From Sphingomonas ginsengisoli An et al. 2013 (GTDB lineage: Bacteria > Pseudomonadota > Alphaproteobacteria > Sphingomonadales > Sphingomonadaceae), in assembly GCF_009363895.1 (NCBI RefSeq), contig NZ_CP045434.1, positions 1,178,001 through 1,242,000 on the forward strand: DNA of 64,000 nucleotides, in the 5' to 3' direction. The notes under the pieces are model-generated. The model made no database searches, was not told the DNA's origin, and saw nothing but the letters and a program-made list of their open reading frames with translations. Positions 10,875-22,247 of the stretch are shown in pieces (the first letter of the stretch is position 1; each line of letters begins with the position of its first letter). The translations under genes were made by a program, and so were the position numbers.

Positions 10875-12065
<1,191 letters not shown>

Positions 12066-12137
12066 GTTACGCCTCTTCTTGGGTTCAAATGGGCCCGCTC
12101 GCCCAATGCGAGCGCGCCCTTAGCGTCAAAAAAATGG

Positions 12138-14231
<2,094 letters not shown>

Positions 14232-14341
14232 GGTCGTCAGTTCCTTAGTGATGTGGGAGGCAGGCCGGTGACCCGCGCTCCCACAATATAGGTAGGGTTT
14301 TTACCAGCGCCACCCGGAGGCGATGCCGAAGGGCTTCTTCC

Positions 14342-18851: not shown

Positions 18852-18904
18852 GCCTGCCTCCCGGGATGGTCCTTTCCCAACCCCGGTGTGGCACGGGCGT
18901 TCCG

Positions 18905-20323
18905 CTAGATGTGGATCACCCGGTCGTAGGCGGCGAGCACGCTCTCGTGCATCATCTCCGACAGGGTCGGGTGGGGGTAGACGGTCTCGATGAAATCCTG
19001 CTCGACCAGTTCGGCGGTCTTGCCGACGGTGTAGCCCTGGATGAGCTCGGTCACCTCGGCGCCGATCATATGCGCGCCGAGCAATTCGCCGGTCTTGGCG
19101 TCGAACACCGTCTTGATAAAGCCCTCGACCTCACCCAGCGCGATTGCCTTGCCGTTGCCGATCGCCGGGAACTTGCCGACGCGGACCTCGTAGCCGGCTT
19201 CCTTGGCCTTGGCTTCGGTCAGGCCGACGCTGGCGACCTGCGGATGACAATAGGTGCAGCCGGGGATGTTCTTGGGGTCCATCGCGTGCGGGTGGACGTC
19301 CTTGTTGCCGAGGCTCTGCGCGATCGCCTCGGCGGCGATGATGCCCTCGTGGCTCGCCTTGTGCGCCAGCCACGGCGGCGCGGTGATGTCGCCGATCGCC
19401 CACAAGCCCGGCACGTTGGTGCGGCACATCGGATCGGTCTTGAGGAAGCCGCGGTCGGTCGTGACGCCGAGCGCTTCCAATCCGATATTCTCGGTATTCG
19501 GGACGATCCCGACCGCGACGATGCAGTGCGAGAAACGCTGCTCGGCGGCCTTGCCGTCCTTGGTCTTGATCGTCGCGGCAATGCCCTGGCCGTCGCTCTT
19601 GAGGCTTTCGACCCCGGCCCCGGCAAGGATGGTGATGCCCTGCTTGGTCAGCGACTTGGCGAGCGCGTCGCTGACGTCCTTGTCCTCCACCGGCACGATC
19701 CGATCGAGCATCTCGACCACGGTCACCTTGGCGCCCAAGTCGTTGTAGAAGCTGGCGAACTCGATCCCGATCGCGCCCGAGCCGATGACCAGCAGGTCGG
19801 TCGGCATCTCCTTGGGAGTCATCGCATGGCGATAGGTCCAGATCCGCTCGCCGTCGGCCTTGGCGAAGGGCAGGTCGCGGGCGCGCGCGCCGGTGGCGAG
19901 GATGATGTTCTTCGCCTGAAGCTCGGTCGCCTTGCCGTCGGCGCCGGTTACCGTGAGCTTGTCCTTCGCGGTCAGGACGCCCGACCCCATGTGCACCGCG
20001 ATCTTGTTCTTCTTCATCAGGTGCGTGACGCCCTGATTGAGTTGCTTGGCGACCGCCCGGCTACGCGCGACGACCTTGCCGAGGTCGGCCTTGGCCTCGC
20101 CCCCGGCGATCAGGCCGTAGGCGTCGGCGTGCTGCATGTAGTGAAGCACCTCGGCCGAGCGGAGCAGCGCCTTGGTCGGGATGCAGCCCCAGTTGAGGCA
20201 GATGCCCCCCAGATTCTCGCGCTCGACGATCGCGGTCTTGAGCCCAAGCTGCGCGCAGCGGATCGCCGCGACATAGCCGCCAGGGCCCGAGCCGAGGACG
20301 ATGACATCATATTGCTCAGCCAT
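18905..20323 (-). CDS. lpd: Dihydrolipoyl dehydrogenase, pyruvate dehydrogenase E3
   Basis: 472 residues. The N-terminal FAD motif is GSGPGGYVAA. The redox disulfide is C42/C47 in GGICLNWGCIPTK. The NAD-binding motif is VIGSGAIGIEFA, and the C-terminal His-Glu pair lies in YPHPTLSEMMHESV. It reoxidises the lipoyl groups of PdhC. It is one of two lpd genes here; its closeness to pdhC assigns it to pyruvate dehydrogenase. Its start overlaps the upstream HTH-hotdog gene by 8 bases, so the two are likely cotranslated. Confidence 0.94.
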   Translation of the reverse strand: MAEQYDVIVLGSGPGGYVAAIRCAQLGLKTAIVERENLGGICLNWGCIPTKALLRSAEVLHYMQHADAYGLIAGGEAKADLGKVVARSRAVAKQLNQGVTHLMKKNKIAVHMGSGVLTAKDKLTVTGADGKATELQAKNIILATGARARDLPFAKADGERIWTYRHAMTPKEMPTDLLVIGSGAIGIEFASFYNDLGAKVTVVEMLDRIVPVEDKDVSDALAKSLTKQGITILAGAGVESLKSDGQGIAATIKTKDGKAAEQRFSHCIVAVGIVPNTENIGLEALGVTTDRGFLKTDPMCRTNVPGLWAIGDITAPPWLAHKASHEGIIAAEAIAQSLGNKDVHPHAMDPKNIPGCTYCHPQVASVGLTEAKAKEAGYEVRVGKFPAIGNGKAIALGEVEGFIKTVFDAKTGELLGAHMIGAEVTELIQGYTVGKTAELVEQDFIETVYPHPTLSEMMHESVLAAYDRVIHI

Positions 20324-20906
20324 TGCTTGCTTCCTCTGCCGCGATCGGACGCGGTCGGTTGTGTTCATCGAGCGCGACGAAGGTGAACTCGCCCTCCGCC
20401 ACGACTGTTTCAAGATCGCCGTCGCGCGCGCGCCCGACCGCTTCGGCCTTGAGCAGCAGCGAGGTGCGGCCCTGCTTCACCAGGTCGACATAGACACTGA
20501 GCTCATCCCCGACCGCCATCGCGCCGGGGAACTTGAGCCCATCGGCTGCCACCAGGATCGCCTTGCCCGCGCTGTGCCGCGAGGCGAACGACCCGCAGGC
20601 GAGCCCCATCTGGCCCATCAGCCAGCCCCCGAACACGCCGCCATAGGGGTTGGTGTCGGTCGGCATGGCGGTGGTGCGGATGAGTGGCGCACCTCGAGCG
20701 ATTGCGAGCGGATCCTGCAGAAGCTCTTGGACTGAAACGCCCAGAACTGTCGCCAATTTAGTAAGCCACGGCTCTGAAAAGCGCCTCAGTCCTCGTTCTA
20801 GATCGGATAGCTGACCTTTGGACGTGCCAATCTGGCCGGCCAATTGGTCGAGGGTCAGGCCACGCTTCTTGCGCCAAGCCCGCAAGAAATTGATCTCAGA
20901 GGACAA
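20316..20906 (-). CDS. XRE-type helix-turn-helix domain fused to a YciA-like acyl-CoA hotdog domain
   Basis: 196 residues in one uninterrupted frame. Residues 8-64 are a complete XRE/Cro helix-turn-helix (LRAWRKKRGLTLDQLAGQIG, TSKGQLSDLERG, LATVLGVSVQELL). Residues 70-190 are a hotdog domain of the YciA acyl-CoA thioesterase family (TTAMPTDTNPYGG, VFGGWLMGQM, LVKQGRTSLLLKAEA, FTFVALDEHNRPRP). The Asp after SQM that is catalytic in Haemophilus YciA is Gly here (GQMG), and the family GDIFGG reads GGVFGG. Start is TTG, 4 bases after the pdhC stop; no ATG precedes the hotdog part. The HTH part is visibly less GC-rich than its neighbours. It could be an acyl-CoA-responsive regulator or a divergent thioesterase. 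Confidence 0.8.
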   Translation of the reverse strand: MSSEINFLRAWRKKRGLTLDQLAGQIGTSKGQLSDLERGLRRFSEPWLTKLATVLGVSVQELLQDPLAIARGAPLIRTTAMPTDTNPYGGVFGGWLMGQMGLACGSFASRHSAGKAILVAADGLKFPGAMAVGDELSVYVDLVKQGRTSLLLKAEAVGRARDGDLETVVAEGEFTFVALDEHNRPRPIAAEEASNG

Positions 20907-20909
20907 GGC

Positions 20910-22247
20910 CTAAGCCACCAGCCCCAGCGGGTTCTCCACCAGTTCCTTGAGCGTCTTCATCAGGCGGGCGCCGTCGGCGCCGTCGATCGCGCGGTGGTCG
21001 AAGCTGCCGGTGACGCTCATCACGGTAGCGACGGCGAGTTCGTCGCCAACGACATAAGGCCGCTTCTCGCCCGCGCCGACCGCGAGGATCATCGCCTGGG
21101 GCGGGTTGATGACGGCGTCGAACTGCTTGATGCCGTACATGCCCATGTTGCTGATCGACGCGGTGCCGCCCTGATATTCGTTGGGCTGCAGCTTGCCTTC
21201 CTTGGCGCGGCCGGCGAGCTCGTGCATCTCGGTCGAGATCTTGCTCATCGACTTGGCGGCGGCGTCGGTGATGATCGGGGTGATGAGGCCGCCGGGGATG
21301 CTCACCGCAACCGAGATATCGGCGCGGCTGTACTTGATGAGCTCGCCGGGGGTGAAGCTGACGTTGCACTCGGGCACCGCCTCGAGGGCGAGGGCGAGCG
21401 CCTTGATCAGCATGTCGTTGACGCTGAGCTTGACCCCGCGGCCCGACAGGCTCGCGTTGAGTTCGCCGCGTAGCTTGAGCAGCGGATCCAACCGGACATC
21501 GACGGTAAGGTAGATGTGCGGGATCTCACGCTTCGCCTCGGACAGGCGGCGCGCGATCGTCTTGCGCATGTTCGAGAGCTTGGCGACCTCGTGCGGGATG
21601 TCGGTCGTGAACGGCTGCGCGGGCGCCTCGGCGGCCGGGGCCGACGCGGTCGCGGCGGCCGGCGCGGCGGCGGCGGGCTGCGCGGCGGCACCGCCGGCAG
21701 CCTTGCCGAGGTCAGCGCGGACGATGCGGCCGCCGGGACCACTACCGGTCAGGGTCGACAGGTCGATGTTCTGCGCCTGCGCCAGCCGTCGGGCGAGCGG
21801 GCTGGCCTTGACCCGGTCACCGCTCGCGGCGTGCGGAGCCGCCGCCTGGGCGGGCGCGGCCGGGGTCTCGACAGGGGCTGGAGTAGGCGCGGCGGGCGCG
21901 GGTGCAGGCGATGCCGGCGCATCGGCCTTAGGGGCCGGCGCGGCTGGCGGAGCAGCCGGTGCAGGAGCGGCGGGCGCTGCAGCAGCAGCCGCGCTGGCAT
22001 CTTCGCCCTCGCCGGCGATCAGGGCGATCGGCGCGCCGACCTTCACCCCATCGGTGCCCTCGGGAACGAGGATCTTGGCGACGGTGCCCTCGTCGACCGC
22101 CTCGAACTCCATCGTCGCCTTGTCGGTCTCGATCTCGGCGAGGATGTCCCCGCTCTTCACCGAGTCGCCTTCCTTGACCAGCCACTTGGCGAGCGTGCCC
22201 TCCTCCATGGTGGGGGACAGCGCGGGCATCTTGAGTTCGGTCGCCAT
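20910..22247 (-). CDS. pdhC: Dihydrolipoamide acetyltransferase, pyruvate dehydrogenase E2
   Basis: 445 residues. One lipoyl domain is at 1-80 with the lipoylated lysine in ETDKA (K43), then an Ala/Pro-rich linker. The E3/E1-binding domain is near 135-170 ([21 protein letters not shown]). The catalytic domain ends with [12 protein letters not shown], which holds the active-site histidine. It transfers acetyl groups to CoA. The start [17 protein letters not shown] is the family N-terminus; codons upstream are non-coding. E1 genes are not nearby in the window. Confidence 0.95.

Follow-up and report, generated by a model that had tools for sequence, protein, structure and literature searches.

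Helix-turn-helix–hotdog proteins in the sphingomonad pdh operon: a candidate new class of CoA-sensing gene regulators

The fusion gene and its setting

The window, by which we mean the whole analysed stretch of 64,000 nucleotides from Sphingomonas ginsengisoli, carries a single frame of 196 amino acids on the minus strand of positions 20316-20906, with a TTG start and no internal stop. Its neighbours are two genes which, from their sequences, we take to be pdhC and lpd, and the gene order within the window agrees with the location between them given by the original prediction. The three genes are as follows.

20316..20906, minus strand: XRE helix-turn-helix (HTH) plus YciA-like hotdog fusion gene (open reading frame, Pfam, NCBIfam and the same sequence in a single-contig genome)
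20910..22247, minus strand: pdhC (dihydrolipoamide acetyltransferase, E2), the upstream gene (list of open reading frames; 22247 is a chosen start codon)
18905..20323, minus strand: lpd (dihydrolipoamide dehydrogenase) (open reading frame; the ATG at 20323 is a chosen start codon)

Only 3 nt separate the pdhC stop (20910-20912) from the start of the fusion gene, which at its other end shares 8 nt with lpd if the latter begins at its likely ATG (20323). Given this spacing, translational coupling with both pdhC and lpd appears likely. A search upstream of pdhC for a candidate operator found no inverted repeat at least 12 nt long. An assembly artefact was considered and ruled out, since the single-contig 3.04-Mb genome contains the same fusion-gene sequence and ten further HTH-hotdog loci were found (see below). 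Very long plus-strand reading frames lie antisense to the apparent fusA (11100-14291) and to lpd (18866-20386); in our judgement these are an effect of high GC on reading frames and not genes.

The protein has the two-domain anatomy originally proposed, with the parts placed as follows.

20715..20885, minus strand: XRE-type HTH, residues 8-64 (Pfam HTH_31/HTH_3 over cut-off; AlphaFold2 helices)
20337..20687, minus strand: hotdog domain, residues 74-190 (Pfam 4HBT; Foldseek best match 3bjk)
20604..20606, minus strand: codon of Gly101, at the position of the catalytic Asp44 of HI0827 YciA (alignment)

Matches over the Pfam cut-offs were obtained for HTH_31 (9.2e-14, residues 7-62), HTH_3 (5.3e-12, residues 8-62) and 4HBT (1.2e-8, residues 88-156). 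An AlphaFold2 model built from a 36-row alignment (pLDDT 88.5) contains two well-formed domains, HTH then hotdog, with HTH helices at residues 7-14, 19-26, 30-37, 45-55 and 59-63. Pfam and the model thus agree on a five-helix XRE domain.

The hotdog domain and its missing Asp

The hotdog is of the YciA type in fold, as 3bjk (E 8.5e-14, TM by target 0.81), 5dm5 and 1yli lead the Foldseek list. The closest NCBIfam hotdog model is YciA PRK10694 (residues 69-190, 2.9e-20); the score of the YciA equivalog is not reached (72.5 bits vs a cut-off of 162). Residue 101 is Gly in the window protein, Asp in HI0827 YciA (1yli) and Ala in 3bjk, which is titled as an Asp44Ala mutant. According to PMC10560148, D44 is the key catalytic residue of HI0827 YciA, the depression at D44 consists of residues 29-35, K52, 58-61 and 125-131, and the enzyme is strongly inhibited by CoA.

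The family survey covered 397 genomes and gave a match in 295 of them, at 150 places or more; the named members fetched include Sphingomonas, Sphingomicrobium, Erythrobacter and Qipengyuania. In all, 260 loci with a hotdog were assembled (215 unique). Of the unique loci, 203 are linked to at least one of pdhC and lpd, and 193 to both, where linked denotes tblastn identity of 55% or more within the fetched stretch. The set is non-random: 30 loci, L015, L019, L020 and L027 among them, were chosen for open frames of at least 168 aa, and another 80 are the best matches. A search across the class found matches in 117 of 289 genomes, and the best 30 were turned into loci.

The missing Asp noted in the original prediction stands, with Gly101 aligned to Asp44 of HI0827, but it is not peculiar to this protein. 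Asp is absent in 175 of the 203 linked hotdogs, the position being occupied by Ala in 137, Gly in 37, Val in 1 and Asp in 28. Within the same family, the 12 unlinked hotdogs all retain it, as do all 26 fetched hotdogs of other families (from the best 30 of the 117 matching genomes). No pdhC or lpd was found in these 26 loci at 55% identity or more, a threshold at which distant pdh genes could be missed. The three class-wide loci of the same family, besides the window, are pdh-linked and all carry Asp. A first protein search gave 3237 matches, and Gly occupies the Asp position in all 120 relatives listed from it. In the window's genome, ten matches to the 4HBT domain were found at E <= 0.001, and since the FGGW..QM motif is confined to the fusion gene, no Asp-bearing YciA was found there. 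Many members of the genus have a second hotdog, about 40% identical, in which Asp is kept in 10 of the 10 such loci fetched.

The loss of Asp is accompanied by other changes. Column comparison reveals that in the Asp-less proteins Gly replaces Asp/His at position 90, Val/Leu replaces Thr at position 118 and PGAM replaces HxPV at positions 127-130, and no new conserved acid appears in place of Asp44. By register, positions 90 and 118 correspond to HI0827 33 and 61, which fall within the acyl depression (29-35, 58-61) as described in PMC10560148. The absence of Asp alone is no proof of lost activity. Taking the pocket as a whole, we infer that the pdh-linked Asp-less hotdog has probably lost catalysis and kept ligand binding.

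Helix-turn-helix domains at the pdhC-hotdog junction

The original prediction also took the lower GC of the HTH part as a hint of recent capture, and alignment with the nearest relative supports this. The segment concerned is as follows.

20694..20909, minus strand: inserted segment, edges approximate (DNA alignment to the nearest relative, G437/L124; flank identity; low GC3)

The HTH part is the more AT-rich (GC 55.1% vs 68.0%; GC3 0.61 vs 0.81). In the nearest relative, whose hotdog is 93% identical, the HTH is missing and pdhC leads directly into the hotdog, with merely the hotdog's own start codons (18 nt) at the site; the window is therefore read as having a clean in-frame insertion of about 210 bp, which replaces the hotdog's own start. 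The flanks are 94% identical on the pdhC side (300 nt) and 89% identical on the hotdog side (360 nt). Between residue 52 and Met81 there is no ATG, GTG or TTG codon, so the hotdog of the window has no such start of its own before the conserved motif. A protein search with the HTH alone did not identify the donor, as none of 8 candidates reached E <= 0.001. The HTH DNA gave no match in six genus relatives, in a search that is weak for want of a positive control. Searches of phages and plasmids returned 34 and 126 records with generic XRE matches; every match was below 60% identity, and the highest among those listed reached 50.9%.

Among the 120 listed relatives, a whole or partial HTH was found in P0002, P0003, P0005 and P0115, most of the others being hotdogs of about 127 aa with identities of up to 93%. 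A second search used a longer query frame, took only the hotdog for scoring and excluded short proteins; it gave 76 matches. Fusions with different HTHs over the Pfam cut-offs were P0002, P0005, P0153 and P0158; the HTH of P0003 comes from a precomputed list, that of P0115 is truncated, and those of P0138, P0147 and P0168 are below cut-off. This search also returned other N-terminal domains and fusions to DUF559. The latter domain (PF04480, endonuclease-like) is present on the hotdog-family proteins P0139, P0154, P0161 and P0165, following the hotdog in P0139. In P0162, P0170, P0172 and P0173 the Asp-less hotdog is preceded by another type of N-terminal domain, some 75 aa long and containing a C-x-x-C pair; in the two that were scanned (P0162, P0173) this domain gave no Pfam match.

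Across the survey, a profile search of N-terminal extensions found an in-frame HTH in 11 loci, namely the window and 10 of the 203 unique linked loci (L012, L015, L019, L020, L027, L067, L073, L080, L134 and L151). The profile was built partly from the fused HTHs that it detected, and a recheck with Pfam passed 9 of the 10, L020 falling below the HTH cut-off (21.6 vs 23 bits). Two HTH stretches precede a single hotdog in L073 and L151. Six-frame translation of the pdhC-hotdog gap in 170 partly duplicate loci placed 12 of 12 HTH frames in the frame of the hotdog. A scan of the 215 unique loci (E <= 1e-4) returned the same ten HTH loci plus six HTH genes elsewhere, and no separate HTH gene in the pdhC-hotdog gap; the hotdog-lpd gap of 193 loci contained one weak HTH match (E 0.04). 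The first usable start codon (ATG, GTG or TTG, counted from 10 nt before the pdhC stop) lies -1 to +7 nt from that stop in all ten HTH loci. Moreover, GC3 of the 210 nt preceding the hotdog is lower than that of the hotdog in all ten, as it is in the window (11/11). HTHs occur in 11 of 176 Asp-less loci, window included, and 0 of 28 Asp-bearing loci, which are too few cases to show that loss of Asp is required for gain of an HTH.

Conservation of the HTH between pdhC and lpd, raised by the original prediction, was not borne out. A match is present in 68 of the 71 genomes of the window's own genus. An HTH fusion occurs in 5 (window, L012, L134, L151, L158) of the 61 with a fetched pdh-linked hotdog, a set that includes the window's genome and was not frame-selected, and the closest relatives have none. 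In 6 of the 7 other matching genomes the sole match has about 40% identity, as the unlinked type does (G416 being the one fetched), and G438 has a partial match. A lack of the HTH in relatives had been named as evidence against the fusion; most relatives, the nearest included, do lack it, yet it recurs in frame in the ten other loci.

The identities of the two domains are decoupled. The hotdogs of L067 and L134 are 96% identical and their HTHs 22%; the corresponding values are 91% and 17% for L012/L151 and 88% and 26% for P0002/P0005. Divergence at synonymous sites is mixed: dS of the HTH exceeds that of the hotdog in L015/L080 (2.5 vs 0.47) and window/L134 (2.1 vs 0.89), is reversed in L015/L019 (0.25 vs 0.39) and is undefined in two of the five pairs. 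In L015/L019, dN of 0.083 against dS of 0.246 points to purifying selection on the HTH.

On an 88-row hotdog tree the HTH label needs 16 changes, at least 9 of them forced by well-supported branches, and a single origin is found in 0% of bootstraps. Rows of this tree were chosen around the HTH cases, with 20 labelled, including four that are fragmentary or weak (P0138, P0146, P0147, P0168); it spans only 123 columns, its bootstrap is unsettled and 48 of 500 shuffles were equally low. It includes the metagenome rows P0147, P0168, P0162 and P0173 and leaves out P0170. A quick 223-row tree without any of these five needs 14 changes for 18 labelled rows, at least 9 forced, and the label is partly clustered on it, since 0 of 500 shuffles were as low. 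That a single ancestral fusion was followed by losses was considered and appears unlikely: unrelated HTHs are found on near-identical hotdogs, and in two of the five pairs compared the HTH has a higher dS than the hotdog. Replacement of the domain on an older fusion is possible, because change counts do not separate gain, loss and swap.

The junction also varies in other ways. In the 203 loci the interval between pdhC and the hotdog ranges from under 60 to over 600 nt, and small genes with their own stop form clusters resembling SH3-type lipoproteins (34 loci), small membrane proteins (24) and DUF559 (11). When representatives of these were compared with 132 in-frame extensions, the membrane and lipoprotein types gave 0 matches and the DUF559-like type matched 20 aa of L099. 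Ten in-frame extensions match plus-strand gap frames of other loci, which we read as other frames of the same DNA.

A putative one-component regulator

On balance we find it probable that the locus encodes a non-catalytic module for binding CoA esters that has repeatedly been turned into a one-component regulator, with a logic like that of FapR and an independent origin. Synteny shows that, in one family of sphingomonads, pdhC and lpd came to flank a YciA-type thioesterase gene, and in a large subgroup the catalytic Asp was lost along with other acyl-pocket residues while the protein stayed highly conserved. The Asp-less hotdog would have kept binding of CoA or acyl-CoA and become a non-catalytic ligand module. 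The sequences show that in-frame capture or exchange of XRE domains has taken place repeatedly on this hotdog, at its junction with pdhC, including a recent event in the window's lineage. The product would be a one-component transcription regulator. CoA esters would bind to its hotdog oligomer, the probable ligand, in view of the PDH setting, being acetyl-CoA or free CoA as a readout of PDH flux, and binding would alter the attachment of the HTHs, or HTH pairs, to DNA. As the HTHs are lineage-specific, operators should differ between lineages too, and one common operator is unlikely given that HTHs differ among near-identical hotdogs. What the fusions share may be the signal rather than the target. 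With HTHs so different, it is doubtful that all of them act on pdh itself or on any other common target, and since the fusion arose several times with unrelated HTHs, a single conserved regulator of pdh is unlikely and the DNA targets probably differ between species. Moreover, most Asp-less hotdogs have no HTH, so the hotdog must have another role without it. A broader proposal, which we hold only tentatively, is that the Asp-less hotdog could be a family-wide sensor of CoA esters, with its N-terminus an exchange site for unrelated XRE domains, so that one conserved sensor would be re-aimed at different operators from species to species.

Three other explanations have to be weighed. The hotdog might be a trigger enzyme, still catalytic through slow or different thioester chemistry and other residues, the HTH only adding autogenous regulation of the pdh operon. 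Asn86, Asp84, Asp134 and Glu135 are indeed invariant across the 36-row alignment, the pocket is highly conserved, and most Asp-less hotdogs persist between pdhC and lpd with no HTH. However, the pdh-linked Asp-bearing group conserves these acids too, no new acid replaces Asp44 and the pocket changes go towards Gly, Ala, Val and Leu, which leaves this explanation unlikely. It is quite unlikely that the HTH is a repressor domain of phage or mobile-element type which represses incoming elements, with the hotdog hexamer serving only as a platform for oligomerisation. Such a role would explain the variable specificity, and it fits the exchange of HTHs on near-identical hotdogs such as those of L067/L134, the lower GC3 of the HTH in 11 of 11 loci and the matches to XRE regulators of phages and plasmids; but those matches, all below 60% identity, are generic for XRE, and no target elements were identified.

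The variable interval and its other small genes would also be expected if the junction were merely a permissive site for insertion and the fused HTHs near-neutral passengers. Yet the other cassettes barely match the in-frame extensions, whereas the HTHs are fused in frame; some seven HTH groups, by our own grouping, would all be in frame by chance with a probability of about (1/3)^7, and the HTH of L015/L019 is under purifying selection. We regard passengers as distinctly unlikely.

How enzymes evolve into transcription regulators mostly has to be deduced from end products such as FapR. In this case the intermediates occur together in living relatives, as Asp-bearing hotdogs, Asp-less hotdogs without an HTH, and Asp-less hotdogs with one HTH or two, and two genomes, one carrying the insertion and one lacking it, can be compared at 93% hotdog identity. 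Each step of the change from enzyme to regulator is directly testable, in a candidate new class of CoA-ester sensor. If the broader proposal is true, a metabolic regulator has been rewired in modular fashion through the stages of catalytic enzyme, dead binder, regulator and tandem-HTH regulator.

A literature search with incomplete journal coverage found no paper describing a fusion of an XRE HTH to a YciA-like hotdog. FapR, the malonyl-CoA-responsive regulator of lipid synthesis in Firmicutes, is alike in joining an N-terminal HTH to a hotdog that has apparently lost catalysis and serves as the ligand-binding domain, as PMC516016 describes. The distinction from FapR made in the original prediction holds for both domains: the HTH of FapR is DeoR-like and that of the window protein XRE-type (Pfam HTH_31/HTH_3), and the hotdogs are of the FapR and YciA types respectively. 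No FapR model is among the 14 NCBIfam matches of the window protein, the best being YciA, and none of the 50 Foldseek matches listed is named FapR, all being acyl-CoA thioesterases or hydrolases. Moreover, unlike FapR, the type described here sits in an alphaproteobacterial pdh operon, and its HTH was captured repeatedly and is not conserved. YciA/HI0827, a TE6 hotdog, shares fold and sequence over window residues 70-191, but the window protein has Gly for Asp44, an altered pocket, an added N-terminal HTH and an NCBIfam score below the cut-off. With regulators of the XRE/Cro-C1 class it shares the HTH domain (chains of SinR, ClgR and the 434 repressor were matched by sequence), and it differs from SinR, ClgR and the phage repressors by its C-terminal hotdog. 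XRE regulators with a metabolite-sensing C-terminal domain exist, for example the XRE-cupin type. The one-component logic of an XRE HTH joined to a metabolite-binding domain is common to both, binding by the window protein being predicted; in contrast to the cupin type, the sensor here is a hotdog, and near-identical sensors differ by exchange of the HTH.
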